Shown piece after piece: positions 1-64,000 of a DNA stretch of 64,000 bases. The stretch's first letter is position 1; every line of letters begins with the position of its first letter. The stretch is from Lepidurus packardi (Eukaryota > Arthropoda > Branchiopoda > Notostraca > Triopsidae): the NCBI GenBank assembly GCA_023053545.1, contig JAKZAN010000002.1, positions 4,634,375 through 4,698,374 on the forward strand. The letters are read 5' to 3'. The position numbers and the translations under genes are program-made. The notes beneath the pieces are model-generated. The model searched no databases. It was not told the origin of the DNA and was given only the letters and a program-made list of their open reading frames with translations.

Positions 1-492
1 GCTAACATGGACGCGAAGTTGTAACTAGGGATCCGTTTCCCAGCCGGGTGGGACAAGGGTGACTCGGTAGACTTGGTCAGTTCCATACCGCTGCCAGTCA
101 ATAACAGTGTCTATGTGTGTATATACAACAAGCCAACACCTGACACTTTCTCACGCGGCTCCGTTGTAAGTCTAGGCAGTACTTAAAGCATAAGCAGCAC
201 CCTTTTTGTGCCTCTTAAAGGTGGGAAACTAGTTGTAACTATGGGTATAGTCCAGGTTTGTCCCCATCATGTATACCATATGGTCTTGAGCACCCAGTTT
301 GCTCCTATTCAACCCTCCCATAATGCCCAAATTTGTCAATGCCTAGCAGCGGGGTTTTCAGTAATGAAAGTGAGATGGTGTGATGAAATACTGACAACGA
401 TATCAGTCATAATAAGGGTCCAAAACATAAGAAAAAGAACGGTTTCCCACTTTAGGTTGCCCGCGGCGGTGACTAGGCACTTCTGGACGCGA

Positions 493-505
493 CCGCTAGA
501 TGGCG
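493..505 (+). promoter_or_regulatory. CTCF-like motif
   Basis: CCGCTAGATGGCG resembles the CTCF core (CCNNNAGRTGGCG type). It is a motif match only; the protein that binds it in this organism is inferred. Confidence 0.35.
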
Positions 506-2960
506 TTTGGGAGAGATGAAGTTGTGGAAATGATAGTCGTGTAGTAGTGAGGGTTAGCGGTAGGTAAGAGTGTAATGTAGGGTATACGGTACAGTACTCA
601 CTTGACATGAAGTGTGGGCGTGGAGGGGAAAGATGGATCGACCCCAAAGTGTCCACGTGCGGCCAATCTGCAAACCTTTTGCCAGCGTTCGCCGGGGGGA
701 AAGCAAAGGTGTGCGTAATAACAATGGGTAGTGAGGTAAACTAAAAAAAAAAGCCAGGGGCGCCAAATAACAATGACAATGATACTTCCAAAGGGGTGAT
801 TAATAGGCCGGGGTCCACTTGACCGACTGTAATAAATACCAGCTTCTTCCATTCAAGACCCCTTTCACAGGCTTCCCTCCCCTTGTACACGCCCTCGCGC
901 TCTTTTAGTTTCTCATCAGATCATCACTGGTGATCAGGCCTAATCCATCACGGAACCACTATGAAGCACGCATGTGAACCACAATAATGCCTTAGACGGT
1001 ACACCATAAAAGCTTACAACCTACCCTTATAACCTGGATGATTGCTCCAACTGCAGCTCCTTTTTACTCTTGTAGTTCTATATATTCTATACATTCTATA
1101 CTTCCTATTCTCTCTCGTAAGTATCCACACAGCAGATCACTTTCGGTGGCTCTATTATTTCAAGGCTTAACGGGGCGATAGCCATCTTGGGGGACCGCAA
1201 ACCGAAACTTGGATCTTGTCGATCTCTTATATGTAAAGTGGGAGGTTTTGGGGGTCGTTTGCGTTGGCCCAAAGGATGGTTATCAGTCTTCAGGTTTTGT
1301 GCAGAACAAAAGCTTCCCCTTCCATGCATCCCGAGTGCTTTTATAGCCTGCATACACTGTGCATAGCCGACCCAAAGAGATTTGAAGAGTTGGACCGATT
1401 CCGCGGTGATCCGCAGGCAAACCGCAGACCTACCCCCAAATGGCAAGTTAAAACTGGTGCAATTGAACACAGCTTACGTCTTTTCTTATGGACCTCACAA
1501 AAGGAGCAGTTGTTCTGTTATGGTACGGATCTTAATCAGAGCATTTGAGGCGCTTTTGGGGCCCATCATGATCTAAAAAACACCAACATCTGCTCTCTCC
1601 ATTTTTTTCCTTTTTTTTTATTCTACGCCATTTGAGAACAAGGATCCCGAAGATTAGGGACAACTGCGGAGATTGTACCGATGCAAAAAATAAAAAAAGT
1701 CTCTTTTTTCGCCGTTTCTTTTTATTTATGAGAGGTACGTCTGTGAGAAAGCCGTAAAAAGGGCGTCTCTTTGGATGGTTACAAGACTGGTCACGCTGTC
1801 GCCCCTGTCACGCACTCTATTAAGGTAGCTTTTGCGCATGGCGACCAATCATGACCATAAGTGTACAAATTGCGGTTTCTCCACTAAACCCGTAGTAATG
1901 TAAGTTTTGGCTCGGCTACCAGCAAACTTTATTACGTAATCTAATGGCTTAAGAGGCCTAAGAATCTAAACAAAAATAAATTAGGAAAAAGACTCAGAAT
2001 TTTTTAAAGAAATTTAAAAATACAAAAAATTTAGGAAAAAGAATCTAGTATGAGGACGTTTGATATAGTATGAGGACGTTTGACTATACCTTAAACAAAA
2101 GGGGGGGAAATTGTGAGCATTCAAGTATAAAACTAGCTAATTAGACTTAGGTTCTTACTGCGCCGCCAAGTAATGAGAGAGGTCAAGTCCTTTTGCCGCC
2201 TTGTGTGTACGTTATAATAAGCAACAGCGCAACTGGCCAGGATGATGGAACTACAGATGATGGAGGTTGAAGCTGTGGTAGAGTTGGTATCTTACTACGT
2301 GGTCTTACACGTTCTTTTTTTTTTTGGGTTTCTCTCCGCCCTTAATGCACGGTAGCTTAATAGCCTCTCACAAAGTTGCTATTGTTCTCCTTAGCTCGGG
2401 ATAATTTACAGACCATTCCTTCTTTTCCCGCAGACTTAAACTAAGCCGCCAGAAAACCAGTTCATAGCATGCTTATTAAGGATCAACAGAACAGAACAAA
2501 AAGTTGGGAGGCAAATAAATAAAAAAAAAGAAAATACACCAAGAAGGTGAGATCCATTTCACTTGTAATCTTGTCCATCCCTTTCTTATAATTTGAGGAG
2601 AAAAGGAGAAAAAGACCGCAAAAATAGCATTAGAACAGCCTCACAATCCCAACACGCTATTGTTCAGCAATAACGTCGTCACAGCTCCGTGTTAACGTCC
2701 AAAAGGGCAATGTGTGAAGGGCTGATGACCCAATGTGGAAGCGATTCGAGTGCAACTAATAAAAGTCGGAGAGAAGAGGAAAAAGGAGAGGGTGAGGCGT
2801 AATGAAGCATGCCAATTTGCTCTTGGATGACCCCATCCATAATAATGAGGTGTGTGCTCTACTGTTGATGGTTATGTTATAGAGTTGGGGGTGGTTATTG
2901 TTGCACAGCCTGCCATGCGTAAGTAAGTAAGCTTTGGGGACAGTGACGACAGCAAAAGGA

Positions 2961-2973
2961 GGGGGGGGGGGGG
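2961..2973. repeat. Poly-G tract
   Basis: Uninterrupted run of 13 G. Confidence 0.9.
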
Positions 2974-3389: not shown

Positions 3390-3850
3390 AAATTCACTGT
3401 TGCCGCTAAGCGTATAGTGAAAGTGCCTAGTAGGAAAGTGTAGTGCTTGGAATGGCGCATCTAGAAACTCGGATTCCTTGTTGGGCTGAACTTCTTTGGA
3501 GCTCTCGGGGTATTGAAAGTTCATGGTTGCGAATGAAAATTCATTGGGGAATCTTGAAACTCGGATTCCTTGTTGGGCTGAACATCTTGGGAGCTCTGGG
3601 GGTATTGACAGTTCATGGATTGCGCTAGGGGTATCCTTTTGCAAATGAAAATTCATTGTTACTGCTAAGCAGTCTATTCAAGCGCCTCATAGGAAAGTTC
3701 ACTGTTGCGCTAAGGCTTGGAATGGGGCATCGAATTACGGGGATTCATTGTTGGACTGAACTTTGTGAAAGCTCGTGGTGTTGGAAGTTCAAGGTTGCGC
3801 TAATGGTAGCCTTTCGCATTGAATTCACTTTTGTGTTGACGCTTTGAGTG
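3390..3850. repeat. Degenerate tandem array with TTCAYTGTTGCGC motif
   Basis: Diverged units of roughly 90-180 bp. Each carries a version of ATTCACTGTTGCGCTAAGG and of CTCGGATTCCTTGTTGGGC (3468, 3558 and a variant near 3737). Spacing is irregular, so this is an old array. Confidence 0.75.
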
Positions 3851-6742: not shown

Positions 6743-9700
6743 GTAAGTCCCCCCGATACCTTTTAGCCCCAATGAAGCTTATGCTCTTTGAAACTATGGC
6801 CGGCCATAAACCGGGAAAGATGATCCCATGTCAGGCTTCTCTTTTTCTTTCTGGTTACGCTGTCTGCGTATTCAAATGACGGATTTCCCGTGCTGTAATA
6901 CGGGCTGTCTACCTTTTTAGAACCATGATATCACAAAAAGGGTAACAATGGGGGACAATAAAGAGTGGGGAACACACAAGTATTGCTTAAACCGGATATG
7001 GTAAAACGTTTTCAAGTCCGGTGAGCAAAAGCACAAGCCTCTGCGTTTTGCGGTCACCCCAAAAGACAGGCCCCCCAAAACTCCCAACAGTTGCAATCGG
7101 CAAGCTGTTCCAACACTTGGAATGCTTTCCAAAGTGAGGTAAACATAAACGGGTCTGAAACTTAAAAAGGCAAACAAAGACTCCCATACCATTTCAAACC
7201 GCCAGAAACTCTCCCACACCCTACATAAACCCTATAGTTTGGAGGATTGCCGGTAAATGGAAGTCCTTAAGCGAGTCAGTCAAGCCGAGGCTTCTTAATT
7301 AGACACACTTAATTTCCCATCGTCATTACCGAACCAGGAGGATCTAACTCAAACATATTAGCTTCAATGAGTTCCTCCTCGATAGCACCAATTCCTGGGC
7401 ACTGCAGAGCAAGTTTGCGGTTCAAGTTTTACCACCGTCAATTTCCCTTTGGATCAAAACCCGTATGCCCTGGTTAATGGGTTCCCTCCCCTCCTTTTGC
7501 ATTATTAAGGGTATAAAAATCTCCCACTGGAAGCTTTTCAGAGATCCCAGTGGAGGTTTTTACACATGATCATGATCATGGGAGTTTGCACGGCACGGCA
7601 CAAATAAGGCCGGAAGTCGCTGGTTGCGGTCTAGTCCCGGGATACAGTGCATGGTCAGCTCCAGCATAGCTCAGCCACGGCCATTTCATTGTTGCACCCA
7701 TGGGCTGAGGTAGGATAGAACCGTGGACACGTAGAGAGTGGAAAGATAGAGCATGTATGTGAGGGGCCAGAGCACTTTGGGTCACGCACGACCAATTCTA
7801 ACCGAATCCACCCGCATCATCATTTCCTAATAGGGACGCTGCTGTGATCAACCCAAAACTTTTTAATTTTGCTCATCAAGGCCTAACCGCTATCACATAT
7901 GGCGTGCTCAGCATAGCCCCTGTGTTACTTGTTCTGTTTTTATTTTAGTTTGAATAATAAAAGGGAAGCCACAGAACGCTCAGAAAGTCAAAATGTGGTT
8001 AACAATGCTATTTAGGAAACGCTTATAGAAATTCTTACAGTTGAGCGTACCATAGCAGCTTTCAGGAAGAATTTGGGGAAATGTTAAGAAATTTTTGGAA
8101 ATTTCCAGAATTTGGAGGAATCTTTAAGAAATTTTGGGAAATTAGAAAAAATTGGGGGAAATTGTAAGAATATTTGCAGAAATTTTAAGAAAATTTGGGG
8201 AAATTAGAAAAAAATTGGGGGAAATTGTAAGAAAATTTACAGAAATTGTAAGAAAATTTACAGAAATTGTAAGAAAATTTACAGAAATTGTAAGAAAATT
8301 GGGGAATTTTAGGACATTTTGGGACATTTGTGTGGGTAATTGATAAGATTGGAAGACACGGACTGGTGTGGGTAGCTATACACTTATCGATTAACACGGA
8401 GTCCCAAGAACCCTGTTCTGTCGTCGCTGCAGACAAACGAAGGAAACTTAACTTCCCTGACACTTGGAACCTTAATACCCGTTATCCTTATTACCTTGTC
8501 GCTAATACCCGTCATATAGAAGCTAATAACCGCCAATTTTCGGAATTTTTTCAAAGAAATTCATTGACTTTCACTAACAGTGTTTTCACTGTTAAGCAAT
8601 GGTTCCTAAGCTGGGAAAGTTCCTAGTGGCGCTAACACATGATGATTCTGATGCTTACAACAAGGGAAATCCATAATAGCAATTCACTGTTGCGTTAGGG
8701 CGAAGACAGTAGGATTGGAATTCACTGTTGCGCTAAGGACAGTGATGCTTCTATCCGGATACAGACTTTCATAATTGCCCTACAACACTGAAATTCATGT
8801 TGTGCCAACGTTTCTAACGCTGCAACACTGAAATCTCAGTGTTGTGCCAAGGATTTTGACGCTCTACACTGATCATGGAGGATGAATCCTTGCTAAATCC
8901 ATTTTCGCGTTAGGGTGAGGGCAATTCATGGTTGCGCTAGAAACCAATGTAAGGTTTCTAATACAAAAATTCATTGTTGTCCTAACCATTTCTAATGCTG
9001 TAACAGAAATATCCTTGTGGTGCCAAGGATATGAACGCTCTACATTCGCAGAATCCTTTGTTTAGAAGAGTCAATAAGAAGAGTAGTTTGGGAGGAGTTT
9101 GGGGCTTTGATTGAAAGGTATACTACCGCAAAGCAATGTGCGAGAATTACAAGTTATTTCCCTGTCAAATAAGGGAAGATTGTGTAGTTGAAGTGCTGCT
9201 TTACGAATGTTCGAGAAGGCAATTCCAGGTTTGAGGAAAGCTCTATTGCCTTTCCGTTGAGGAGTGGAAGAAGGAGCGAGGCGGAACAATACTCAAGGCT
9301 CATAAAAGTGTTCGGCTGACCGTTACTTTTTTTTATAGCTTTTTTGTCCATCAGACTTGGGGCAAGTTGGCGTGATTGGCAGAGATCGGCTTTCTCATCC
9401 ATACAACACAAGTCCTTTGGGTTGTAGATATCCGTAAAGTGTTTCGGAAGTAGACTGTGACACAAGAGGCCAAGTTTTGGGGGGAGCCCAAGCATTGGCT
9501 GACCATCATCTAAAAAACCAAAGCGACAGACGCCAGAACCATAAAACCACCAATCCCTGCCATCTTAAATTGGGAACAAGAAAGAGAGTCAACCGGGAAT
9601 TTCTCTTTATCTTCTTTCCCTAGTCCTGTGTCTTCGGCTGTAGCCCAATAAGTCACACATATGACAAGAAGTGGCGGCCAGTAACTCCTTCATCTGTACA

Positions 9701-12700
9701 GTCCACTACATTGGGCCGCCAAGAGCGGGAACCATTACGAGGAAAGTCGTAAAAAAAGGCAAATTATCACACGAGAAGAAATCCGCTGCGTGACTCGGAC
9801 TGGGAGGAAAAAACCTGGACAGAAGTCGCACTCCATTCTTAATTTAGTAGAGGCAATCCTTTTTTGTGTTCCCGTAATTTGTTTACCCACGACTTACTGA
9901 CTCAACCCTGGCTGAACGTCCTAAAAGTGAAAAACAATCTGTGTGTTTGATTTCTACATTTCTACCTCCAACTTTCCCCTACTTCTGTCCGTTGTTGGCG
10001 GGTTACGTGTCCGAATCTGTTTAAGAGGGTACTTACTGACTCAACCCTGGCTGAACGTCCTCAAAGAGAAAAGAATCTGTCTGTTGTATTTCTACATTGC
10101 TACCTCAAACTTTCCCTTATTTCTGTTGGTTGTGGGCGGGTTACGTGTCCGAATCTGTTTAAGAGTGTTTGGTGGGTTACAGCGCAACGATTTACGCAAC
10201 CGCACCCCCGATCGTTCAGCCACTGCACGATGAGCTCAAGCGAGAGACAGCAAAGAGAGGATCCCAACAAACAAAGAACAGTCCCAGCAGATTGTTAGGG
10301 TTCAAGGTGTTGATTACGGCCTCATAGCGGGAACCTGTCACTTGTCAATCACGCAGGAGGGGAAGGTTATATACCCTTGCATAACTCACGCCATGCGGTA
10401 TTGTAGGACGGTAAGGGGAATCAAGGGATGTGAAATTAGCTCCTACCGAAAGCTTCCGGTGTTTAGCGTCTGACATGTGGTGAAACCCACCATGGCAACT
10501 CACAACGAAACCTTCGAAAAATACTCGAAAAGCTGACAGTGACACAACCCAAATCCCTAACCATGCCTTTAGAACGAAATGCTCACCGCCTATGGCCGAC
10601 TAACTCACGGAAATTGTGCCGTACATTAACGCAAAAACTTCCGGCTATCATAAGAAACTTCTCTGACAGGAGACAGGATTCTAAATTCCAATGCAGTCGA
10701 AGCAAATCCACTATCTGAGTTACTGAAAATACCTTAACGTGCATCGAAATGGTCTAGTGTCCATTTGGAAGTGGGCCACGCGCGCTACAAAGGTTCCGCT
10801 GGAAGGATTGCGAAAATTATCGCGAAAACCATTATATTGAAGAAATCCTTTTGACAGTAATATAGAGGAAAGAATGAAGTATTGCAACGTTCGGAACGTT
10901 TTACGAAAACGTTAGAGGTAAATTTTAAAGTCTGGAAGAAACATGTGAGACAATCCGCTACGGTCGGTTTAGCTAGGATTATTACGTTGGCTGAAGCGCG
11001 AAACCTGCACTAAATCTCGCCAAATCGCATTGACAGTAATATCAAGGATAATATCAAGGACCAGCCAGCTTGTGTTATTAGAAAAAAATCCCGTAAATAA
11101 GTTTGCTGTCTTGGCGTAACCATAGGCGCTTAACATGGGAAATTAACATGAACAAACAATACGAAGCACGAAATTAATAAGAAATTGATACAAAAAACGC
11201 TAAATTGGCAAAATGCTGTTAACAGTAAGGTGGAAGACATATTTTCCTACGAAGTCAGTGCAACCTTTTACTGAAATTCTTTACAAATTTTCTATTTCGG
11301 AATTAGCATGTCCGACAGCCATTTTTGGGTGAAATTGGCCGATTTTTTACGGGAAAGTTGTGTCCTAACCGCGTTTATTTCTGGCGCAGTTGTAAAACTG
11401 GGGAAATCACAGGAACGTTGTGATCAGTAGTTTCTCCCACGACTGTAAACCCAATTTCACTCGTTTTTTTCATTTTATTGCGCCAAAATCATGCGGCTTT
11501 CATGCATATATCCGAGTTTTGGTGACGTTTTCGGTCCCTGTTTTAGTGGTAAACTGTTACGCCGAGTTGCATTAGCGTAATCAAAAGCGGTTACTGAAGG
11601 TTTAACATCTACACGAAGGAAAGCCCTTTTCGTTTCACGGTTAGGCGAGTTGCGTGTGAAAAAATGCCAAAAACATCCCTTTGCGGAAGACATGATCCGC
11701 ATTTTTATAGGAAAATTATGATCTTTTGTTGTCTCATGGCTCATGCATAAGTGCCTAAGCAGTACCCGCACGCTATATCGTGTCTTTCTGCTTTATTTTA
11801 TATGAATAGATCGCAGGGACGACAGGGAAGGACGTCACCATTCAGCAGAAGAGCCGGACCACGACCGGAAACGGAACTCGGGCTCAAGCAAAACCAGTCA
11901 TAATCAGGCCCATCATCAAGCCCATCATCACGGCAGCAACAGTAGCAACCACCGCAAGCAGCGCAAAGCGCGCACTGCCTTCACCGACACGCAGCTCCAA
12001 ACCTTAGAAAAGTCCTTCGAACGACAAAAGTACCTCAGCGTCCAAGACCGCCTGGAACTGGCCGGCAAACTGGGGCTCAGTGATACCCAAGTCAAGACCT
12101 GGTACCAGAATCGAAGGTAAAAAAAAAAACCTTCTTTGGGATAATCTTCAACCTTCCTTCTTAATCTTCTTTATTGCACTTCCAGGACTAAATGGAAACG
12201 ACAGACAGCGGTAGGACTCGAACTACTGGCCGAAGCCGGTAATATGGCCGCGGTACAGAGAATGTACGCCAATACCCCGTACTGGCCCTATGCAGCGGCC
12301 GGAGGAGCCCCTCACCTCACCGGTCTGCCAGCCAGTAAGTTACCCAATCATTACGTTCGACCTTGTCTTTCTTTGAAACGTCCTGGGAAGCTTCTGTTGC
12401 GCTTGAAATCATTACCTATATCATTTATCCTAAATTTTGAGCTGGAATTTCGGTTAGCCTTAACTTTCTTCTATTTTTCATCTAATTTTTCTTCTATTTT
12501 CACTCAAATTTTCCTTTAAACTGTCTTGCAACCTATCCCTTTCGTTCAAATTTACTGAGATTTTATGACTTAATTTGAGTTGGAGAATTTGAAATTAAAG
12601 ATTTTGATGGAATTTGAATGTGAAATTTGAATGTCAAAGCAATTTTCTGCAATTTTTTCCTACAATGTAACTTCTTTTCGTGTTATCCAAAAGGCGCGTT

Positions 12701-17006: not shown

Positions 17007-17878
17007 GTATAAACTAATCATGGATGCGTGGTGCATCTTAGTATGCTTAACTTTACCGTCACTGTAGTTTTTCCAAGAAATTCTATTGGTTTTCGCCCAA
17101 GAGTTGTTCCGCAATGCCCAATGGTAAGGGCCTATACCCAGCTCAGTTAAGCTGTAACAGTCCACAGTCCAGTCTGGGAAGCCTTAACCCTCCCGCATCC
17201 TCAACAATGAACTTTAAGCTGCTTTAGCGAGCGACAGTCATGGTTCTATGGTCCTGCAATGGTGGTCGGTACACAAAGCGAACGTTCTAGCTTGTGCAGC
17301 GGGGCTTGGTTAGATGAATGTTCCATTCACTTGCCTTGGTTGATGTCACAGAAAACAAAAAGCTTAACACTATATATCTATTTAGTCAAGTCAAGTCAAG
17401 TCGCCTTGTTAGTTATCTACTTGCTCTATGTCAAAGAACTCTGAAATCCCCCTAAACCCAAAGCAAAGAGACTATGCAGAAGCTTTGGAAGAAAGTGTAG
17501 TGTGTAAGTAGTGTTGGGCGATGGATGTCTGGGTTGTTCTGCCGCTATTGTTATGTCTTGGTTCTTAGGCGCTATGCCGCTAGACGGGCCTCTTTATAAT
17601 ATATTAGGCAGCAATTCCACATCGTAGAATGTGAGACAAGTCAAGACCTCCTGTCGTGTTCCTTTGGCCGCAGCGGAACCCATTTGGAGTAACCGCGTCC
17701 GCCATATTACAGAAGTTAAAAGACAAGTCTTAAGAAACCGCACCCGCAAAGTTGCATCGCCTCGTGAAGTTCTCAAAGGAAACAATACGACTATAAATCC
17801 TTCACTTTTTCTTCACACTTTGTGGAAGAAACAAAAAGGCCCTCTGTGCCTTATTTTTTGGCCCTTTTCAGTTTAAAC

Positions 17879-19329: not shown

Positions 19330-19870
19330 ACGTGAAAGAAAAGATTCAAAAAGAAGCCATTTCTCCCGCAGCGACTGGTCTAGGTGAAGCGGGCATTAAG
19401 ACATTAATAAGACATGCCGGAACAAAGCTAAGAAACCCGGCCAGGTTCCTTTCTTCATTCGCTTCACTCATACTTGTCCCCAATTTTTCACTGTTGAGCT
19501 ACATTCATGGCGAGGCAAGCCGGAGTAACGCTACAAGTCCGGCCTGGAGTAAAAGAGAAGCCATTTCTCCCGGAGTGACTGGCCTAGGTGAAGCAGCTAC
19601 TAAGCGCCGGAGCAAATTGATTGTCTACATTCACTGCGAGGCAAGCCGGAGTAACGCTACAAGTCCGGCCTGGTCTCAATTTTTTAGTTATCCTGCGTTA
19701 ACCTTTTCTTCGGACCCTTTTAGTCCATGCTGGAGCCAAGCTAAGAAACCCCGCCAGGTTCCACTCTCCAGTCGCTTCACGCAGAACTGTCCCCCATTTA
19801 TCAATGTTGGGCCACATTCAATGCGAGGCAAGCCGGAGTAACGCTACACGTCCGGCCTGGCCCCAAGTTG
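19330..19870. repeat. Composite tandem array with GCCGGA/TCCGGC stem-loops
   Basis: Interleaved blocks recur: GAAGCCATTTCTCCCG (two copies), AAGCTAAGAAACCC (two copies) and a hairpin block (three copies) with GCCGGA at 19519, 19645 and 19832. Each is closed by TCCGGC after a 13-nt loop containing TAACGCTAC. A 169-codon frame spans the array but only reads repeats. Confidence 0.9.
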
Positions 19871-23149: not shown

Positions 23150-23520
23150 CAACGTTCGATTCTCGCAGTCAAACCCTGGCGTTTACATCGATATGAATGT
23201 GAAGCAGGCGTTAAGCACCGTTGGCTCTCCCTGCCTTGTCTAAACCGTCATAAAAACGTTCGATTACGTCGCCGCGCTCAACAGTGAATTCCCACTGGTA
23301 CTCCACCACCAAAATCTTCGATTTCCTATCACTCTGCAGACGAAGTAACGCGACTCCACAGTGTGCAGCATACGCAACAATGAAATCCAATAGGGCTCAA
23401 CTCGCCTTCCCTTACGTTATTGGAATACTATATACCATGCTGGGACCTTTACCTGCTGGCACAAAAACGTTCGATTGCCAAGGACGTAATGGTAGCAACA
23501 ATGAACAGTTATCGCCAGCA
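23150..23520. repeat. Diverged array with AACGTTCGATT and CAACARTGAA
   Basis: AACGTTCGATT occurs near 23151, 23257 and 23467. The last two are followed within 30 bp by CAACAGTGAA or CAACAATGAA; another CAACAATGAA lies near 23378. The spacing suggests a decayed repeat unit of roughly 100-210 bp. Confidence 0.6.
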
Positions 23521-37574: not shown

Positions 37575-38765
37575 TCCCCAGAACTCCCGCTCCAACAATG
37601 AAAAAAGGGCATTGGTACGACCTTAGCAACTGACCTAGGCCATTCCAAACCAACAGGAATTCCCCATGTACATATAACCCTTGATCTCGTATCTCTACAG
37701 CGCAATTTCCGCAGTTTCTTGGAATACGAAAGTAGTCCTAACTAATGCGTGATCCACGTACGCATAAGAGTGTGATGCTGATGGGAAAAAGGCGTTAAAA
37801 GAAGGAGAGCTTTTCAACTTCTGAGCTACAGAAGACTAACCAATGTATATACCATGCCCCAAACGCCGTTCCAACAATGAAAAAAAGGCATTGGCATACA
37901 CGTTAGTAACAACTCTACCACACTGAATTCCCCATGTACATAGAACACTTGATCTCGTATCTCTACAGCACATTTTCCGCAGTTTCTTGGAGTACGAAAG
38001 TAGCCCTCATAGTCCTAACTAACGCGTGATCCACATACACATAAGAGTGTGATGCTGATGGAAAAAGGCGTTGGAAGAATGAGAGCTTTTCAACTTCTGA
38101 GCTACAGAAGACTAACCAATGTATATACCATGCCCCAAACGCCGTTCCAACAATGAAAAAAAAGGCATTGGCATACACGTTAGCAACAACTCTACCACAC
38201 TGAATTCCCCATGTACATAGAACACTTGATCTCGTATTTCTACAGCGCAATTTCCGCAGTTTCTTGGAATACGAAAGTAGTCCTAACTAATGCGTGATCC
38301 ACGTACGCATAAGAGTGTGATGCTGATGGGAAAAAGGCGTTAAAAGAAGGAGAGCTTTTCAACTTCTGAGCTACAGAAGACTAACCAATATATATACCAT
38401 GCCCCAAACGCCGTTCCAACAATGAAAAAAAAGGCATTGGCATACACGTTAGTAACAACTCTACCACACTGAATTCCCCATGTACATAGAACACTTGATC
38501 TCGTATCTCTACAGCACATTTTCCGCAGTTTCTTGGAGTACGAAAGTAGCCCTCATAGTCCTAACTAACGCGTGATCCACATACACATAAGAGTGTGATG
38601 CTGATGGAAAAAAAGGCTTTGGAAGAATGAGAGCTTTTCAACTTCTAAGCTACAGAACACTAACCAATGTATATACCATGCCCCAAACGCCGTTCCAACA
38701 ATGAAAAAAAAGCATTGGCATAACTCTACCACACTGAATTCCCCATACAGAGAACACCTCGTGTT
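37575..38765. repeat. Higher-order tandem array (about 270-bp units in A-B-A-B order)
   Basis: Units restart at CCTAACTAAYGCGTGATCC near 37737, 38013, 38282 and 38562, after a partial unit. Units 1 and 3 share AATGCG and CGTACGCATAAG; units 2 and 4 share CCTCATAG, AACGCG and CATACACATAAG. The repeating block is therefore a dimer of about 548 bp. Each unit holds CCAACAATGAAAAAA. Confidence 0.93.
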
Positions 38766-41900: not shown

Positions 41901-43675
41901 ACTGTACTTTCTTGTCTTTGAAATGGTCGGTAACTCAGGATTGAAATGCGCCTTTTACCTCAATTTCTTTCATTCCAATTCTAGTTTCTCTTCTTGGAAA
42001 ATTTTCCAAAAAATGCCAATAATTCCAAACAATACCAGACAAAAGTTTCAAACAAAAGTTTGAAATCCAAGAAAATTCCAATGATTCTAAAATAATACTA
42101 GAAAAAAAGTCCAAGAAAATTCCAATGATTAGAAAATAATGCTAGAAAAAATCCAAGAAAATGAGAAATTATTGCCGGTATTTTAGGATTCATTTCTGGG
42201 ACTAGAATACAAAAACTGAATTTGGTTTTTATAGGTTCCTGGAGGGATTAAATGAATTCGCGTGTTTGAAATCTTTTCGTTAGAATCGTTTCTAATTTAA
42301 CGCTTTTTTCGTTACCCCATGAGTGGGGGGAATGAGTGGGGGAATGAAATTTTAATTCGGAAAAAGGGGGGAAAAGTAATAGTCATTTGGTTGAAAAAGG
42401 ATTTTTTTTTTTTTCAGGAGGGCGACAACAACCCATGTGAGGGGGTACTGCTGCAGAACCCAGATTTTAGGAAATCTCTTAGCCGTAGTTCCGCTCTTTA
42501 TGTGCGTTTTCCTGGCTGGACATGGACGCACGAGCATGCAAGTGCGGTGCGCACATTCATTGTTGTCGGGCAGACCGTGGGGGAGTTTATTGTGTAGCAA
42601 GAGATAGGTAGCAATGAGAGCGGAGGGAATTTGGGACCATGTGTATAGACCTCCCATACATGAGGGTTATGAAGAGCCAAAAAGGGGGCGCAATGTGTCC
42701 AGCAAGTAAGAGCATATATAAAGGGGGGGGGGGTAGGTAGGTAGGTAGGGGGGGCAAAGCCAGCAGGTGTAAAGTTGCTGTGCTTGTTTCCGCTCTTGTT
42801 ACCCGCTAAAGGCTAAAAACACGACACCTGCCCTTTTACCCACACACACCCCTCTTTTGCCCCCCATTTTATAACCATTACTGTTAAAGTGGTTGCACTA
42901 AATGGATATCACACGTGTGCGAAAAGAAATCTACTTTCAACTATGGTTCCCAAGTTGCAAAGTGCGAAAGTTTCAAGTTTCACAATGGCTCTTAACTCAC
43001 TCCAAAATGTTCCAAAAACTCTTAACTGGAATTCCCCAACCCTCAATTACAATAAATGTTCCAAACTCTTCACTGGAATCCATTACAATCCATTACAATC
43101 CTCCATTTCAATTAAAATAGAACTAGAAGAGACAGAATAAATCGAATCGAATAGAACTAACTCAAAAAATAGATAATAGATACCTAGATAATACATAATA
43201 GATACATAGGTAAATAGAAAAAAGTAAATTAAAATAGAAAGTAGGAGATAGAAAGTGCATTAGAATTCATTTTCAAACTTCAAAATCGGGTTAAAAAAAC
43301 TTGAATTAAGAAATAAATCATCTTCCTTTTGGCAATTAATCCTTCCTTTTGTACTACGATGACCCAATTCCTCCAGAACCCCCCAAAAGTAAGTACATCG
43401 ATTTCGCTATTAAGTTAAGCCAATAGGCTTTCTAGATGGCCTAATAAAACGTTGTGCGCACGCAAAGGTCCAAAAAAGAACACTATAGGAAACTGTCATA
43501 TTAAGCTTCCGACAACCAAAAGCTTTTGCATGGCTATATCTATTGTCGTCATAATGCCATCAAGCCAGGCAAAAAAAATAATAATAAATAAATAAAAAAA
43601 TACCCTTTCAACAACCAAAACAAAGTACCCTCTCCCCGTCATAACCGCCATTATATTACCTCTTTTCTTTTGCCT
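38951..43675. other. Intergenic DNA
   Basis: No supported gene. It contains a 13-C run (39571-39583), an AGATGGCGG-type motif near 41260 (minus strand), an imperfect duplication around 42050-42160, a G-run/(TAGG) tract (42723-42754) and a weak candidate exon at 42418-42597. Confidence 0.5.
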
Positions 43676-44880
43676 AAAAGAGCCAAGAAATAACCTCAAT
43701 AAAGGCGCATGTACACGACATACATGTATTCATTGTTGGGTTAACGTTTGTCCGGGTTGGGGAAGGGGGAAGAGATAGCGATCTAGATGCTTCTATCCCC
43801 TCCCACCGTCCTCAACAATGAATGCACGTTGCATGTCTCCATAGCAAAACAGTACAGTGGTTCAGGTCGTATATGGTAGAATAGGGATTCTCGTTCTTTA
43901 GCTAAAAAGGGCCGAGAAATAACCCTAATAAAGGCGCATATACACGAAGACGTGTATTCGTTATTGGGTGAAGGTTTTTCCGGTAACGCGACACAAGGAC
44001 GACTCGACAAAAGGACTACGGTGTAACCGACACAAGGACGGCGGAACGCGACTTACGGACAACGAACCCCGACTTAAGGATTAGGTTTGGTGTTTTGGAA
44101 AGAAGCTTGAGTTCTGAAATCAAGCTCTGAAGAAGTTCTGAAGAAGCTTGAGTTCTGAGTCTTGAATCTCCAGTTTTTGAATTCGGCGATCCTGAGCCTT
44201 GAGTTCTTGAATCTTCAGTTCTTGAATTCCGCGATCCTGAATCTTTAGTTCTTGAATCTTCAGTTCGTGAATTCTGCGATTTTGAAACTTGAGTTCTTCA
44301 ATTCCGGTCTTGAATTCTCGAATCTTCAGTTCTTGAATTCCGCGATCTTGAAACAGGCGAAAGCGGGTCCGTAGTCCTTAAGTCGCGGTCGACGGTACAT
44401 TTGTCGGGTACACCGTAGTCCCTTTTGTCGAGTCGCCCTTGTGCCTTTACGTCCCTCAGTAAAAGCGCATATACACGAAGCACATGTATTAATTGTTGAT
44501 CTGAGGTTTTTCCAGGGTGGGAGGAGTAGCTGTCTAGACGCTTCTATCCCCTCCCATCCCACCCGGCAATCATTCGTCAACAATGAATGCAGTGCAGAAC
44601 AGTACAGTGGTTCAAGTTGTGTACAGTAGCATAGGGATTCCCTTTCCTGCCTTAATGGGCCAAGAAATAACCTCAGTAAAGGCGCATATCCAGGAAATAC
44701 ATGTATTCATTGTTGAGCTAAGGTTTTTTTCCTCGTGGGAGGGGGGGAGGAGTAGCGATCTAAGATATTTCTCTCTCCTCCCACCCGAGCGAACCTTCTT
44801 CAACAATGAATGCACGTTGCGTACCTTGCTGTACCGAAACAGTACAGAGTAATATAGGGATTCAAAGCTTTGTACGACAC
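43676..44880. repeat. Cluster of hairpin repeats with TTCATTGTTG arms
   Basis: Three complete hairpins (43728-43823, 44488-44588, 44705-44811) and one 5' half (43956-43980). Each opens ATTCATTGTTG or a variant and closes CAACAATGAAT. Inside are GGGTGGGAGG/CCTCCCACCC-type arms around an AGTAGC-rich loop. Shared flanks include AATAACC.YCARTAAAGGCGC upstream and CAGTACAG downstream. Confidence 0.9.
43990..44445. mobile_element. Candidate foldback element
   Basis: Inverted arms about 80-90 nt long: GACTCGACAAAAGGACTACG near 44001 matches the reverse complement of GTAGTCCCTTTTGTCGAGTC near 44415, and CGACTTAAGGA (44070-44080) matches TCCTTAAGTCG (44375-44385). The centre is a minisatellite of TTCTTGAATTCCGCGAT type (44100-44355). 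It begins where the truncated second hairpin repeat stops, which suggests insertion. No transposase is present. Confidence 0.6.
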
Positions 44881-49057: not shown

Positions 49058-49335
49058 TACCATAGCTCGGTATTGGTATTCATTGTTACCCTTTCAGATG
49101 GGGATTTCCTATGTCGGTAACGTAAAAGCGTATTTTCGTTGTTAGCAAGAGTTGAGGCTCCCATATACATTAGCTCGGTATAGGTTCATAATTTCAGTGT
49201 TGGCAAGAGATAAGAAGTATTGCTCTTTCATTGTTGTAATTTCAGACCGGGATTGCTTATGTCGGTGACGTAAAAGTGTCAAATTTTCGTTGTTGGCAGG
49301 AGTTAAGGCTCCCGATACCTTAGTTCGATATAGGC
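49058..49335. repeat. Tandem duplication of about 148 bp
   Basis: GTCGGTAACGTAAAAG near 49113 and GTCGGTGACGTAAAAG near 49261 are followed by a TTTTCGTTGTTRGCARGAGT block and GAGGCTCCC/AAGGCTCCC. TTCATTGTTG variants recur inside. Confidence 0.8.
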
Positions 49336-49839: not shown

Positions 49840-50060
49840 CATTTTCATTGTTGCCACCTATATTTTCCATTGTTGCACTATAGGTTTCATTGTTGCGTGA
49901 TATCGTAAGCTTGGTGCCGTGCAAATTACGTTGGCACAATGGAACATTCATTGTAACCATGCAAGTTTCTTATTGCGATCTAAATTTCATTGTTGCACTG
50001 TCATGTTTCATTACGGCATTGCCAATTTCATTGTTTCCATTCCATGTTTCATAGTTTACA
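49840..50060. repeat. Short-period TTTCATTGTTGC array
   Basis: About eight degenerate TTTCATTGTTGC words spaced roughly 20-45 bp, with unrelated DNA between them. GCTTGGTGCC near 49908 recurs in the 53.7-kb stem-loop. Confidence 0.8.
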
Positions 50061-51215: not shown

Positions 51216-53688
51216 CTTGTTCTTCTTCCTGCGTCATCATCATCAAATACAAACATCTCATCAGTAACCGAAAACCTTCTCTTGATACCTCTGCCCTGCG
51301 TTCTCATGGTATGACGTATAGAAAACAAAGTGGGACCATATCACCATAATAAGCCCAATTGCCTTGCCACGCTCTACAGCATAGAGCTCGCAACCATCAA
51401 TGCATTTTTGTTCCCTTTTACTGCTCATCCAATAAACATTACACGCAATATAGAGAAGCTTCTCCTTCTCGGAAAACCCTCTTTTTCCTTATTTCTTCTT
51501 TGAGGAAGAAACAATTTCCCTCTGAAGAAAGGAACACACAAAGGGGAAATTGTAACCTTCTAAATGAATCATTAATTCTTTCTTTCTTACTTAATTTTGA
51601 TGAATTACTTTATACGAATTTCTTAATTTTGACGAATTACTATAATATTTATTATTCGTGTACATTTGTGTACAGCTAAACTAATTTTTTTTTTATTTTT
51701 TATTTTCCCACTAATTTTTAGGAAGAAGTTAAGGAACAAGTGAATTTCGGTCACACTCTGCATGCCCGAAATTCAGAACTGTTCTTCACTACGAAAAACC
51801 GTTTACACAGCAACCACCAAACTAGTATTCAAATGTGTTTTTCCTTAAATTTTCTTAATAATACTTTTGGATTTCATGCATTTACCCCAAATTTAATGTA
51901 TATTGCGAAGAATAGTAAGGAAAATGAAAAGTGAAGGGATTTTAAAGACTTTAAGTGAAGATTCTTAGAAAATCTCCCTGTTTTCCATCATTTTTAAATG
52001 TTTACAAAAGAAACAAGGCAAACCTAAACGAGCTTCCCTTTTACGTGATAATACTCCTTGTTTTAGAGTTTTTTTTCTTTTTTTTAAACGCATCCAAATG
52101 GATAATAAGCGCCTTTGGAAACCCTTTCGTTTTGTTTTTTCTTTTTAAAAAAAACTAATAGCTAAGCAAAGGGTACAATAGTACACCAGTTTAGAAACGT
52201 TTAAAAAAAAAGAAAAAAAATTCCCATGTCGAGTTAATTTTTTATTTTGTTTTTGAAAACGTTTTTCGTCTTACACTTGTCGACGACTTTGAGTTTAAAG
52301 CTCGGGGCTTTTACATGCTTGATAGCTCTACTTTTTTTTTAACCTCCACACTTAAGAGATGCCGTTTTGAAAACTTTCCAGAGCGCTCTAAACTATCCAA
52401 AAAAGCTCCATCACACTTAACTCTTCTAGAATGTGTATTTTATGACTTTCCTTCCCGCATATTAGAAAGCCCCAGGGGGTTTAGAAACGAACCCCAAAAA
52501 ACGCTGGGCTTTTTGAACCCTTAATAACCTAAACAAAAAAGTTATTACTATAAATAAAGAAATAAACTAAACTAAAATAAAGAAAAGGACAAGTTTCATA
52601 TTCCTATTTGGTGCTTGACAAGATCCTGCCCAATCCTTTAACGATATCTAACTGAAGCCTAAAAGGGGTCAAAATAAATCTTATCAAATCAATAAATAAA
52701 ACAAAATAAATACGAAAATTTTTAAAAAAGCTAATGCAGTAAATAGAATAATTTTCCTATGCATTAACTTTAACATTCCTATGCATTAACATTACATTAA
52801 TTTTCCTATGCATTAAGATAGCTAACCTAAGTCATAGAAAAACGGCCAAGATAGAGTAAAAGTCAACTAAAAAAGAATCAAAAAATCGGATAAAGGAAAG
52901 AACGAAAATAATGATAATACATTGAAATTAAGGAAATAAAAAGAATACAAAATAAGGAGAAAAAAGGCGAGATAAAAGCTAATTACAGAGTACCCCAAGT
53001 TCAATTGCCCATGCTTGACCTCATGTCGCTCATCATACGGGTTTGCACGCGAGAAAAGCGGCAATGCAATTAAAGACAGGCAGTTAGTTACTCATAACAC
53101 ACAACTACTATATGGATATGGATAGACTCCTCCCCTTTACCCAACCGCCTCCGGCTGCCGCTACCCCCGCCACACAAGATTATCCATAATAGAAGGCCGT
53201 GAGAAAAGTAACGTTAAGATAACCACCATTTGCCCCCAAACTCCCAAGACTCCTTCCTCCCCCTTTATTTTTACTAGTACACAGGTCGTGAGATAGGTTA
53301 ACCTGAGTTAAAAGCTCGCACTTTTAAAAACCTTTTTCCGAATGAAACAATTGCCCCGGCTTTTATTGTTCTTCTCCCAAGCAGAAGCACCTTGTTCCCA
53401 TGTCTTTAGATTACTCACCTATATACGTCACTTGCCTTTAGAGCACTCCTTAAACTCTCCAAATAGTGTCGGTACTTGAAACTAAATGCTTAAATTCAAT
53501 CCTTGGAAATTAGCCAAAAATGGTGCAAAAATTCTGTGAATCCCATTTTTTGTTGACATTTTAATTTGTAGTGCTTCATCTCTGTCTAATAGAGGGCAGT
53601 TAGATCATTTTAAGGCGCAATCAATCTCCAGAATTTTCACTGTTGCGTCATGGCGTTTTTAGGCTTGGGCTTTTCATTATTTTCATTA
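51216..53688. other. Intergenic DNA
   Basis: No supported gene. TTCCTATGCATTAA-type words recur three times at 52752-52816. Several frames are Phe/Leu/Lys-rich, as expected of AT-rich noncoding DNA. Confidence 0.5.
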
Positions 53689-56504: not shown

Positions 56505-56670
56505 TGGTAACGCAACAATGAAAAACGCGAGCCAATTTGAAGCTCAAGAACCAAGGGCATGACGCAACAATGAACAACTCAAGCTTGAACTCAAGCTAAA
56601 AGAAGCCATGACGCAACACTGAAAAATACGAATCATAACTACAGCCACAACGTAATAATGAACAGTTCAA
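56505..56670. repeat. Tandem CGCAACAATGAA array
   Basis: ACGCAACAATGAA, ACGCAACAATGAA, ACGCAACACTGAA and CGTAATAATGAA, roughly 40-55 bp apart, joined by CTCAAG-rich spacers. This is the same word as the 3.4- and 8.7-kb arrays on the opposite strand. Confidence 0.85.
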
Positions 56671-56999: not shown

Positions 57000-57976
57000 G
57001 CCCCGACTTTCCTTTCGTACTATATTCATTGCGCGTCAAGGATCGGCGGAAAAAAACAACAACAGACCCCCCCACAAAAAAGGGTAAAGCTTAATCAAGA
57101 ATCCCCACAAGAAACCGCTTTTCGGTTTCCAATTGGGTACGTCGCCAGACTTCAAGCTGGTCAGTAGCGCCGAGACCCCGCCTTTTCACTCGCATGGATC
57201 CATGGGATCGCTCAGCCCGAAAGGGAAAGCGTGCAAAGTGCTGCGCAACCGGGAATACTCCTGAACGAAACCCCGAGCACGCCCATATAGAGCAGCCCAA
57301 ACCACTTGTCTCTTCTCGTAGGTGTCAGAGTAAAGTGAGTAACATTCGAATGCTCAAATTCCTCCCCATCAACACAAGAACAATCTCGCCCAGGGTTGGC
57401 ATCCATTCCGTGCCCTTTAGCTTCCGAAACTGGGGAACTTGGTTACTCCAAGACCTGTTAGAGGAGGCACCACCAGGCAGGCCCAACAAAAGGATAGTAG
57501 CGGAAAGGGAGAGGGGACCCTAAGCCAAGTAGGAGCGAGCACCCATCGCCAGCAGCCAAGCACCACTTAATTCCTCCATGAGCCCCATCACGACCATCAG
57601 ACCCATCAGTCCTTGGCCTCGCGTCTAACCTCTCGCACGTCCAACTTTGGCTCGGTGGCTCCAACTTGCAACCGGACCTAAAGCCCCTCAAACTCCACAA
57701 TCAAACGTAGATTCCCCAGTAATCCTCTCCGAATGTGCCACAACACTTTACGCTTCAATTCCGAAGACAGTGTGTCGTCGGAATCCGTTAGTGACTTCCG
57801 AGTATTGACGTAGACAATCAAAAGTGCGGCTGCAGTTCCGAAATTTCGGGTGCTTCGGGTGTTAAAAGTAGTTAAAAGTATTGAAGGAAGCTTCAACACA
57901 TCGGGGAATCCACTTAACCCGCTTTATCCACGAGATTGCCCATACTAAAGTGAACCATCGTGGTGAGCCTTCGACT
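57000..57976 (+). promoter_or_regulatory. Probable promoter and 5' UTR of the second BarH gene
   Basis: GC-richer sequence directly upstream of the start codon, with no repeat array. No TATA box or initiator could be fixed. Placed by position. Confidence 0.35.
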
Positions 57977-58826
57977 ATGACGGTAGATATTGCAGTGCAC
58001 CCTCAAGATACTGCCCTACGACTCAAGATGACGGTCACCGGCCGCGACAGTTCGGAGGACACTTCGAGCCCTTCCAACAGTCAAAGTTCCAAGCTCCTCG
58101 TCGACGGCACCAGTTCAAGTGGCGGACATGTGAGTCATGACCCGGCGAGTCCCACGCCGTTGTCGCCGAAGACGCAGCAGAGTAATAACAATAATGGTAG
58201 CAAAGCGTCGCCGACGCCTCCGTCGGTCACGGCGACGACCCATTCCTCGCCGAATCCGCAGCACAGACCCAAGTTCATGATTACCGACATTCTCAAAAGT
58301 GACAGCCATCCCCAGTCGGGCGGTGAGCTACAGTCCCGACAGTTAACCTCTCCGGCGGGACCCAACGGTTCCCTGTACACTTACGGCCATTACGCGTTAC
58401 AACACCCGTACAGTGCGGCCGCCGTCCTACACATGGGACACCACCATCATCATCCTCACGCGGGATTTACGCACCCGGCCACCTCAACACCCCACAACCT
58501 CCATCACCCTCACCACCACCCTCACGGATTAACGCTGCCCCACTTGACGACCCCGTTACATTTGCTAATGTCCTCGCCGCCGCTGCATCCCCATCCGTCC
58601 CTCAACCCCGTAGGAGGGAGTGGCAGTGGCAGCAGCGCCGGATCTTGTGCGACGCCCAATTCCATCGATTCCTCTCCGCGAGATCTGTCGCTCCGCGGCG
58701 GCAACGACGCCTCCATCTGCCACAAAAGCGACGTCTTGGACGTCCTTGACGCCTGCGAAGACGATGCCTCCAATTCCGATCATTGCGACGACAAAAACGA
58801 CCTCAGCGACTCGGAATCCATCACAT
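57977..58826 (+). CDS. Second BarH-type homeobox gene, first coding exon (partial gene)
   Basis: This 850-nt exon encodes 283 residues plus one base and ends at a GTAAGT donor (58827), the same phase as exon 1 of the upstream BarH gene. I chose the ATG at 57977 (A at -3). The open frame begins at a TTG at 57881, and a second in-frame ATG lies at 58028 (residue 18). Features in order: a Ser/Thr-rich region; the FIL motif FMITDIL at residues 100-106; a His-rich tract at about 152-189; a Gly/Ser tract; PRDLSLR at 234-240, a good match to the CtBP-binding consensus; and an acidic segment at about 261-282. This order (FIL, His-rich, acidic, splice) is that of a BarH protein just before its homeodomain. 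The homeodomain exons are not in the window, so assignment rests on FIL motif, architecture and linkage. Other FIL-bearing Bar-class genes are the alternative. Confidence 0.82.
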
Positions 58827-59785
58827 GTAAGTTTCAAACACTACTTTTCCCCACTCTTCTATCAATTCTATCATCCTATCCACTATCTCCCTTAGCCGAT
58901 CACCAAACCCAACCAAAAAAAATTCCCAAAAATCAGTCTTGTCACCGTGTATGTTCCGTTCGCGGGTCTGTTAGGTAGAAAACGATGCCCCAAAGCTCGT
59001 AGTCACATAAATCCCCAATCGCTCCCCGTGCATATTTCATGGCCGACAATGTCATGTCACGAAGAAGATGGACCAACTTATCAGTCAAACTGGGAGAGGG
59101 GGAGTTCGCTTGTTTGATTGCGCTTGAATCTCGCATCGCATCCGCAACAAATTATAGCCAATCTTTGGCTGTACCCTCGTCACTAGTTCAAAAGGTCGGT
59201 CATCAACTTTGCAAAAGTTGTATTCCACTGAGCCACATGCGAACCTTTTCGTCACCCAATCGGGAGGCCAATTGAACAAAATACCAGGGTTGGGGTACCT
59301 AGTTCATTTGCTTTTTCCCTCAATTTTTCACTACGCAACCCCTTCTACCAATTTCCGTCTATTTTCCCCTTCATCTAGAAGTTTTCCGGGGGAATTTTTG
59401 GTCAGCACAAAGTAAAGAAAAAGGAATTTGAATTAGAGGAAAAGTGCACAGCTCTCGTGCTACCGTTAACTTTCCCATAACCCCCGTCCATTGGGTCCTT
59501 TTTATTTGTATTTGGTACTGTGAAAACACATCTTGCGTGCCTTTAACTTAAGGGAAAAGAGATTGGACGAAAAGACGAGTTGACTGATACACAACAGTGA
59601 AATTGTCCCCTCTTCGCTCGGGTGGCAACCTCCCAACCTGAATATTCATTGTTGATCCCCATAGCGCTCCGATGTGGCGCAAAGAAGGTTCCAGCCCTAA
59701 CAAAACTCCCCTGAAGACCTACTAAATTCGCAAACTACCCAATAGAATACTCGAAATTACCCAAATAGAATCTTCTTCTAATCCC

Positions 59786-61794: not shown

Positions 61795-62065
61795 AGTACT
61801 GCGGGGGCAACAGTGAATATTCGGTTTGAGGGGGTTGCAGTTCAAGGCAAAACGATCAATTTCACTGTTGTCTTTTCAATGTTGCGTACAAGTCAAGTCA
61901 AGTTGTCTAGGTTGTACTTACTCTAGTCTCCCTCTATAGTAAGTCTCTCTCTTACTGTAGGTACTATGGGAGCAACAGTGAATATTCAGTTTGAGGGGGT
62001 TGCGATTCGAGGAAAAAGGGTAAATTTCACTGTTGTCTTTTCAGTATTGCGTATAAAGTCAAGTC
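61795..62065. repeat. Duplicated hairpin with CAACAGTGAA/TTCACTGTTG arms
   Basis: Two copies about 163 bp apart. Each has CAACAGTGAATATTC, TTTGAGGGGGTTGC and then TTTCACTGTTGTCTTTTCA. The outer words are inverted, so each copy can fold. AAGTCAAGTC follows both. Confidence 0.88.
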
Positions 62066-64000
62066 GTCTAGCTTGTATTTGCTTTAGTTTATAGCTATGG
62101 ATGGATAGAGCGAATAGAACCATTCTACACCGAAACCTCTATCGGTAAGACTATCGCACAGAAGAGATTCATACACACGCTTCCCTTTACTTTGAATGGA
62201 AAGGGGGCCCCCTTTCCTATATGACCCTTGTTTGTGTTTTGTATGTGTAAGCCAAAGGATTAAACGAGATATCGGTCCCAAAGTGGGTCGGCAAATAACC
62301 GCCGTGGAGGGACCAACTACCCGATATCATCACTATACTATCATCAACCGATGCGAGATGGTATCGATCGCATCATACGATCCAAAACTTTGAATTCGAA
62401 CTTTATCCTAAGAATTGTGTTCCATTGAATGTTTGGATCCCTAAAAGTATCAAACGTTGCGTCACTGAACTTTCTATCGTTAACGAAGTAGATTCGATTT
62501 TAACTGTTCCCTTTAAACAGGTTTAGCTTAAAAACGGAATGGAATCCATATCGAGGAAAGGCAACTGTCTCATTTTAATTAAAAAAATAAGAAAATGGGA
62601 CATTTCTCCTTTTTCTATTTTCACCTGTTTTGCAATTTGCAGTTTCTCCTAAATTTCTTCTTCTTACTCGTAGATTCGTTGAAACTTGCTTCTAAAGCTT
62701 AAAAGTCATATACACTTAACTGTCATATACACTTATTTCAAACCTCAAGAAACGACTTAAACTGTCTAAAGCGACCATGCAATCCCGAAAGTGCATGTTT
62801 GTAGAGGAAAATCAAAATTCCTGAGATTACTAAACCATGAGTGACGGACTGCGCAGTAATGGAAATCTACCCAAAAGTATTTCAATTCTAAACAACTGGA
62901 ACTACTTTTCTGAGTTTGGCTGCGAATTGTAATTTCTGAAACAGAAGCTTAGAGACCTATATTAGCGCCAAAAAAGAAACACATTGAAACAACTTTGGCA
63001 ACGAGTACTCGCAGCAGCATTTCCTTTTTTTAAAAAAAATTTGATTTTATGTTTGGGGGGTTGAAAAAAATAACCTTGAGTGGTCATTATGCAGTACTCG
63101 CAGTAATTATACTTTTTGTTGTTGTCTGACACTTACATTAAAAGACTCGAAATTAGACAAGGGGGTTGAATCTTCGGCTTTCCTTTCAACTTGATACGCT
63201 TTGGCTCTAGGGAACATTCCATACCTCTATAAAAAATTGTTTTTTTTTTGCTTTGTTTTTAAAGTCGTTGGATTGAGCGACTCTATCCTAGACACTGTTT
63301 GGTGTTGGTCCATCCAAAGTTCTCTAAAACAGACCTTAATTTCCTTCCGTCATGGCTAAGTTGGCGCACAAGACTTGTTTTACTCGTTACAATTATTGTT
63401 ATTACATAAATGGCGCTGTGGCTAACAAGCCAAGTATAGTCAAACGGTTGGGATAGTAGTTTCTAGTTTAGAAAAGTCCTTCGTTCTTATGTCTCTTGTG
63501 TTTTCCCAACAAGTAGGAAGAGAGCCCATCATCTTCCACGCACTGACGAGCTTCTAATTTACCTTTTCGGTGGCGATTACGCTCTTCTACTCTCTCTCTT
63601 TATTTTTCGTTTGTTTTTCGTTTCTCTTGGGTAAGTTACACGTGGCGAACCCTTTAAACAGCCCAAAGGAGCACAACTCAAGGCAAATCTGTCACGCTAC
63701 CTCGAACTTTGTAGTGTCAGAGCGAGCAAAACACCTCCCAATGGCTATTTTGCGAAAAAAAACTAACTTTTTTCATGGCTAGCAATTCATTTTTTTTTTG
63801 GCGAAGTTACTTTCTGGACATGGCATTTCTGCTTAAACACGAATGCGAGATAACACTTTGGGGCATTTTTTTAATTTTTTTTAATTGGAGGAAGACTGGC
63901 GAATGCCAAATTGGTGAGTGCTGAAACGTTATAGGAGCTAATTAAAGGTACTTTGCATAAATTCAAGACGAATGGCCAACGTGACGCTTGGCACGTTATC

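Follow-up and report, generated by a model that had tools for sequence, protein, structure and literature searches.

Several kinds of short DNA word recur among sequences that are otherwise unlike. Homotypic clusters of transcription-factor sites occur in developmental loci, families of miniature inverted-repeat transposable elements (MITEs) carry the same ends around unrelated interiors, human minisatellites have a shared core, and the CENP-B box is a 17-bp motif, NTTCGNNNNANNCGGGN. In Meloidogyne satellites, PMC3694981 reports conserved boxes as monomer junctions, short motifs in otherwise divergent units that are proposed to be protein-binding sites or rearrangement signals. The core motif upstream of the C. 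elegans 21U-RNAs, known as the Ruby motif, is CTGTTTCA, with thousands of short clustered copies among unrelated neighbours (PMC3597512). For SOX proteins the core is given as ATTGT or AACAA in PMC5919691. Here we describe a ten-base word, TTCAYTGTTG (reverse complement CAACARTGAA; TTCATTGTTG is the T form and TTCACTGTTG the C form), that is greatly over-represented in a stretch of 64,000 nucleotides from Lepidurus packardi (assembly GCA_023053545.1, contig JAKZAN010000002.1, C2:4634375-4698374; hereafter the window). Like the Meloidogyne boxes, it is a short motif conserved in units that have otherwise diverged; it differs from them in being 10 bp long, in lying mostly outside long satellites in the sequence read, and in forming a tail-to-tail palindrome.

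Our counts revealed 37 exact sites in the window, compared with a mean of 0.45 and a maximum of 2 in 100 dinucleotide shuffles. The initial annotation of this DNA had put the number at 36 or more, with fewer than one predicted from base composition, and had considered a genome-wide count near expectation as the contrary outcome. The whole assembly (108,557,554 bases in 344 contigs) held 4,728 exact copies against 538 of the reversed word (the word read backwards, our genome-wide control), which is about nine times as many (8.8-fold). The enrichment is also regional: 264 kb of contiguous sequence contained 83 sites, the 37 of the window included, from window coordinates -3687 to 140033. The left-adjoining 10-kb piece held 5 of them, and exact sites were absent from the nine 10-kb pieces farther left, from piece L024 within the cluster and from the final two pieces on the right. 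In the 152 kb around, a fourth-order Markov model predicted 2.05 copies of TTCATTGTTG and 0.81 of TTCACTGTTG, and 62 and 21 were present, respectively. The word thus occurs in genome-wide excess; it also has a preferred palindromic arrangement, lies among unrelated flanks and is retained in many diverged local duplicates. With a probability of about 0.46, slightly below one half, we read it as the half-site of a putative dimeric DNA-binding protein, a half-site that selection would have kept and local duplication multiplied.

The arrangement of close pairs is what points to a dimer. Among pairs of exact words no more than 30 bases apart genome-wide, 59 stood tail to tail (TTCAYTGTTG...CAACARTGAA), and 36 of the 50 listed had gaps of 0, 1 or 2 bases (6, 23 and 7, respectively), a preferred symmetric spacing of half-sites as expected of a dimer site. 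After thinning to one pair per 20 kb and gap, 29 of 40 were still at gaps 0-2 (p about 3e-21 against uniform gaps). Head-to-head pairs numbered 21 in the genome, with one at gaps 0-2. When position 4 was relaxed, 35 palindromes with a one-base gap were found, all on the six large contigs, and the control gave 0. Because the centres are 10-12 bp apart, the two half-sites would face the same side of the helix, which suits a symmetric dimer. The few palindromes that were read in sequence belong to local relatives left of the window and to an array in the Hox cluster, which are two sure unrelated contexts. Among other spacings, a head-to-head gap of 28 accounted for 5 of the 21 pairs (corrected 0.014) and a direct distance of 16 for 9 of 100 listed pairs (corrected 0.16).

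The 37 sites of the window are as follows.

3393..3402, +: TTCACTGTTG, first of the 3.4-kb array (exact word search)
3698..3707, +: TTCACTGTTG, degenerate ~46-bp array (exact word search, array reading)
3744..3753, +: TTCATTGTTG, degenerate ~46-bp array (exact word search, array reading)
7685..7694, +: TTCATTGTTG, single (exact word search)
8683..8692, +: TTCACTGTTG, 8.7-kb array (exact word search)
8721..8730, +: TTCACTGTTG, 8.7-kb array (exact word search)
8970..8979, +: TTCATTGTTG, 8.7-kb array (exact word search)
17202..17211, -: TTCATTGTTG, single (exact word search)
19487..19496, +: TTCACTGTTG, 5' edge of a dispersed repeat of about 70 bp (exact word search, repeat alignment)
23279..23288, -: TTCACTGTTG (exact word search)
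23375..23384, -: TTCATTGTTG (exact word search)
23496..23505, -: TTCATTGTTG (exact word search)
32016..32025, -: TTCATTGTTG, in a tandem duplicate that has the word in this copy only
37593..37602, -: TTCATTGTTG, ~269-bp array, unit 1
37872..37881, -: TTCATTGTTG, unit 2 of the same array
38148..38157, -: TTCATTGTTG, unit 3 of the same array
38417..38426, -: TTCATTGTTG, unit 4 of the same array
38696..38705, -: TTCATTGTTG, unit 5 of the same array
42556..42565, +: TTCATTGTTG, single (exact word search)
43729..43738, +: TTCATTGTTG, inverted partner at 43813
43813..43822, -: TTCATTGTTG, inverted partner at 43729
44578..44587, -: TTCATTGTTG, 44-kb repeat, third copy
44706..44715, +: TTCATTGTTG, inverted partner at 44801
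44801..44810, -: TTCATTGTTG, inverted partner at 44706
49227..49236, +: TTCATTGTTG, in a dispersed repeat
49844..49853, +: TTCATTGTTG, repeat with two relatives right of the window
49886..49895, +: TTCATTGTTG, same repeat as 49844
49986..49995, +: TTCATTGTTG, same repeat as 49844
53636..53645, +: TTCACTGTTG, inverted relative at 56.6 kb
56513..56522, -: TTCATTGTTG, 56.5-kb array (exact word search)
56565..56574, -: TTCATTGTTG, 56.5-kb array (exact word search)
59592..59601, -: TTCACTGTTG, head-to-head with 59645 (exact word search)
59645..59654, +: TTCATTGTTG, head-to-head with 59592 (exact word search)
61808..61817, -: TTCACTGTTG, head-to-head with 61861
61861..61870, +: TTCACTGTTG, head-to-head with 61808
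61973..61982, -: TTCACTGTTG, head-to-head with 62026
62026..62035, +: TTCACTGTTG, head-to-head with 61973

The locations given in the initial annotation were recovered: the arrays at 3.4, 8.7, 49.9 and 56.5 kb, the inverted pairs at 43.7-44.8 and 61.8-62.0 kb, and one word in each of the five units of the 38-kb array (37.6-38.7 kb). To these we add sites at 19.5, 23.3-23.5 and 49.2 kb. Six sites had been described as standing alone, which is correct for those at 7.7, 17.2 and 42.6 kb; the other three have relatives. The site at 59.6 kb is an inverted pair (59592- and 59645+), that at 53.6 kb is matched in inverted orientation by a relative at 56.6 kb (arms of 34 nt, 85%), and that at 32.0 kb lies in a tandem duplicate of 90% identity. 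A degenerate AATTTGGGGAAATT-like tandem array with units of about 21 bp and no exact word was also seen at 8070-8329.

Are these sites copies of one element? We masked the word and grouped 107 sites, from the 264 kb, the Hox pieces and pieces L001, L003 and L007, by 100 bp of flank on each side; flank similarity gave 44 groups, 22 of them single, rather than one alignable satellite family. The earlier view that this is not one repeat copied around therefore holds overall, although many of the sites are local duplicates. In the columns from -60 to +99 of 44 group representatives, positions outside the word deviated only at -2 and -1, where A or T prevails, and at +11, where T is rare, indicating a signal of about 13-14 columns with no common surrounding element. 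Genome-wide, variants at position 1 exceeded the control by 423, one tenth of the 4,190 by which the word itself exceeds it; decayed copies of one element would imply about 10% divergence and easily aligned flanks, and the flanks do not align easily.

Many duplicated copies have kept the word. It was identical in every unit of four tandem arrays, which have 5, 5, 6 and 4 consecutive units at a mean identity of 73-80%, whereas other 10-base windows of the same arrays were identical in 2 of 232, 9 of 137, 2 of 137 and 4 of 58 cases (combined p 3.5e-4 if independent). Four other duplicated sets kept it intact in 2 of 2, 2 of 2, 2 of 3 and 3 of 3 sites, compared with 7%, 9%, 23% and 47% of other windows. 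We further examined local alignments in which the query copy, but not its partner, was chosen for an exact word, dropping any that exceeded 97% identity, had fewer than 50 columns or offered fewer than 20 control windows; locus L005 was also set aside, being the same DNA as L004. The partner was intact in 55 of 74 alignments against 23.2 expected from the same alignments; counted per site, retention was 21.8 against 8.6 expected, of 33 sites.

The word is clearly bounded. In the genome, variants at position 1 numbered 1,453 against 1,030 for the control (1.4-fold) and those at position 4 numbered 3,280 against 2,201 (1.5-fold). In the local 152 kb, where expectations again came from the fourth-order Markov model, one-substitution neighbours of TTCATTGTTG at positions 1, 2, 3, 8 and 9 were found 10 times (14.5 expected) and those at positions 4, 5 (A, G), 6, 7 and 10 were found 58 times (16.4 expected). 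The same two sets for TTCACTGTTG gave 8 against 7.7 and 24 against 8.2, respectively, with 0 neighbours at its position 4 (1.7 expected). That the inside is more tolerant than the ends is a result of the local cluster only.

From these data we infer a protein that would read the half-site TTCAYTGTTG, with flanks WW...NV, mostly as a lone half-site, and whose full site would be TTCAYTGTTG-N(0-2)-CAACARTGAA, bound by a two-fold symmetric dimer with half-site centres about one helical turn apart. The arrays would have arisen by local tandem duplication of a site with its flank, followed by drift of the flank while selection kept the word. Such sites may form regulatory clusters in gene-poor DNA, or may serve chromatin or chromosome structure.

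Several results weigh against this reading. Selection would be deduced entirely from paralogues, three families supply 52 of the 74 alignments, and retention was zero in 4 of 11 local families (at 3.7, 32, 110 and 129 kb, with one or two alignments each); the degenerate 3.4-kb array has 3 exact units and 5 with one mismatch. Genome-wide, positions 1 and 4 give similar folds (1.4 and 1.5). The inner-tolerance pattern was not seen again among the 20 sites of the Hox sample, where neighbours of the T form at positions 1, 2, 3, 8 and 9 and at the inner positions numbered 7 (3.7 expected) and 10 (4.2 expected), and those of the C form 11 (2.6 expected) and 3 (2.4 expected), many of them from one array. 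The palindromes beyond the two sure contexts are taken as independent from their places, and some may be copies of one repeat. Furthermore, close direct pairs of the word (279 against 3.19 expected) were in the same fold excess as those of the control word (4 against 0.041), and sampled sites were no nearer to homeobox genes than random positions (16 of 51 within 200 kb where 15.0 were expected, and 7 within 50 kb where 4.6 were). Finally, shared segments begin no more than 10 bp 5' of the word at 22 of the 83 local sites against 5.0 expected (54 random positions in repeated DNA, 200 draws; maximum 12), which a plain binding site does not predict; segments ending within 10 bp on the 3' side were found at 8 sites (4.2 expected).

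This polarity is the best evidence for the foremost alternative, that the word marks the ends or junctions of many small elements, non-autonomous or foldback, served by one mobilising or rearranging enzyme, which we consider unlikely but well worth weighing. The initial annotation had suggested such an end signature, and the 5'-edge starts give it some support; they also resemble the boxes at the monomer junctions of Meloidogyne satellites. Three copies of the repeat of about 70 bp carry the exact word 4-6 bp inside their 5' edge (a fourth is degenerate), and left of the window are two 150-160-bp copies with the exact word at both ends. As in MITEs and foldback elements, ends are shared and interiors unrelated, and some local repeats start at the word. 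However, exact inverted partners are few: the first 100 sites listed on C1 include 4 adjacent tail-to-tail pairs within 1 kb, and there are 8 tail-to-tail and 6 head-to-head within 1 kb among the 83 local sites, so that most copies have no such partner, a test of exact words that decayed partners would escape. Shared sequence often passes through the word; in 120 site-alignment pairs, counted in both directions, it runs at least 20 bp beyond the word on each side. No target duplication was seen by eye at the few readable palindromes, without a systematic scan. Of 53 sites sampled by flank definition, 51 were on the six large contigs (71% of the assembly; p 5e-6), leaving 2 on smaller contigs where about 15 would be expected. 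The word was also tried as a hAT end and rejected, since the hAT-type element next door ends in CAGGGTTGTAC and does not have it there. The preferred dimer reading and this alternative may coincide, should the protein be derived from a transposase. A related possibility, which we hold to be rather improbable, is that the roughly 4,700 copies are an architectural or centromere/heterochromatin box with a putative dimeric, possibly transposase-derived, reader, marking gene-poor regions that include the BarH and Hox loci and seeding repeats at its own 5' edge. Compared by eye with the consensus of the CENP-B box, the 13-14 signal columns did not agree with it, and no CGGG follows.

A core that drives tandem duplication by recombination or slippage, the hotspot of the initial annotation, was kept as an alternative to which we give little credence. 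The word has many direct pairs, 279 with starts 30-60 bp apart and 180 with starts 10-40 bp apart, and these have many periods, and unrelated arrays have one word per unit, recalling the minisatellite cores. However, because the control word is in equal fold excess, close direct clustering is a general property of the genome. A duplication core would not be expected to make isolated unrelated sites or a tail-to-tail palindrome of fixed gap, and the exact word is in only 1 of the 6 window arrays with units of at least 80 bp. A SOX-family site, also raised at the outset, is still less probable. The word includes CATTGTT, and the opening ten bases of the 31-bp DC5 enhancer oligonucleotide bound by SOX2 are exactly TTCATTGTTG (PMC4330359). 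Among the 30 listed of 353 open-licence PMC papers with the exact 10-mers, this is the one recognised as using the word as a SOX2 site; six ambiguity-coded forms were not found in the open-licence PMC literature. On the other hand, the ATTGT/ACAAT core is not kept throughout: a quarter of the copies have ACTGT instead (21 of the 83 local sites and 13 of the 53 in the genome sample), the C form is itself in excess, and genome-wide the word depends on the T at position 1, which is not part of the core. The core positions are moreover the more tolerant ones in the local cluster, though not in the Hox sample, and the present word has a palindromic arrangement of its own. Least probable of all, in our judgement, is a promoter motif for many tiny transcription units in the manner of the Ruby motif. 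It would fit thousands of clustered copies, unrelated flanks and shared sequence lying preferentially 3' of the word. However, palindromic pairing is not expected of it, the 21U core is another word, and no further signal at a set distance, for example a T some 40 bp downstream, was found, no column beyond +11 and up to +99 having a chi-square above 10 in the 44 groups.

Two of the neighbouring repeats were characterised further. The repeat of about 70 bp has four diverged copies (window 19481-19550 and 19795-19893; L020 at about 996 and 5408), finishes in a GCCGGA...TCCGGC inverted repeat and probably accounts for the locally enriched word GGCAAGCCGGA. The hAT-type element (L018, window coordinates -6446 to -3839) has 11-bp ends and a target duplication of 8 bp, CTCTAAAC. 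Its open frame of 619 codons gave a match to the hAT dimerisation domain (PF05699, E 8.7e-18).

Two features of the window bear on the genes around the cluster.

11806..12117, +: BarH-like homeodomain exon (Pfam PF00046, E 3e-21)
57872..58975, +: open frame 5' of a second homeodomain, with no Pfam match of its own

The best solved relatives of the exon are BarH-like 2 proteins. The second homeodomain begins 272 bp past the right end of the window (C2:4698646), and the frame at 57872-58975 is probably part (a 5' exon) of a second BarH-like gene. The frame 5965-6876 and the homeodomain exon flank the sites at 7.7-8.97 kb, and the sites at 59.6-62.0 kb are flanked by the frame 57872-58975 and the second homeodomain. 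Open frames of at least 120 codons cover about 29% of the site-free left flank and about 17% of the site-bearing stretch (mean of 12-kb blocks), so the sites are in the gene-poorer part. The Hox-cluster locus, of which 49 kb was chosen for its dense sites, holds 20 of them there. In these many copies of a short site with drifting spacers around BarH-like and Hox genes, the word resembles homotypic clusters; it differs in the lack of proximity of the sampled sites to homeobox genes noted above, and is thus not shown to be a homeobox feature. Scans of the window with Rfam (at gathering scores) and for tRNAs gave no match.

Some wider observations were made along the chromosomal sequence. On C2, close direct pairs are dense at 3.9-5.3 Mb, the region of the window, and at 12.7-13.5 Mb, and sparse between. 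Within C1:1532799-2334167, 18 of 22 loci in the minus-strand Hox cluster carry the word on the minus strand (hand count; binomial 0.004), and from 1.85 to 2.33 Mb of C1 all 12 of 12 sites are on the plus strand. Strand coherence was not significant over C1 0-2.33 Mb (39 of 61 neighbouring loci agree; shuffle p 0.056) or for the direct-pair loci of C1-C3 (p 0.14, 0.25 and 0.90). At C6:5494506-5497511 there are four homeodomains in a single uninterrupted frame of 2,389 codons, which we take to be ZFHX-like. Nine contig ends were inspected, one of which reads N, and no clear telomere was seen.

If a protein does read the word, a genome-wide DNA-binding factor of L. packardi could be named from sequence alone by way of one pull-down with the palindrome TTCATTGTTGACAACAATGAA. 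The case would then show a binding site outlasting the turnover of the repeats around it, and would bear on the origin of binding-site clusters and satellites.

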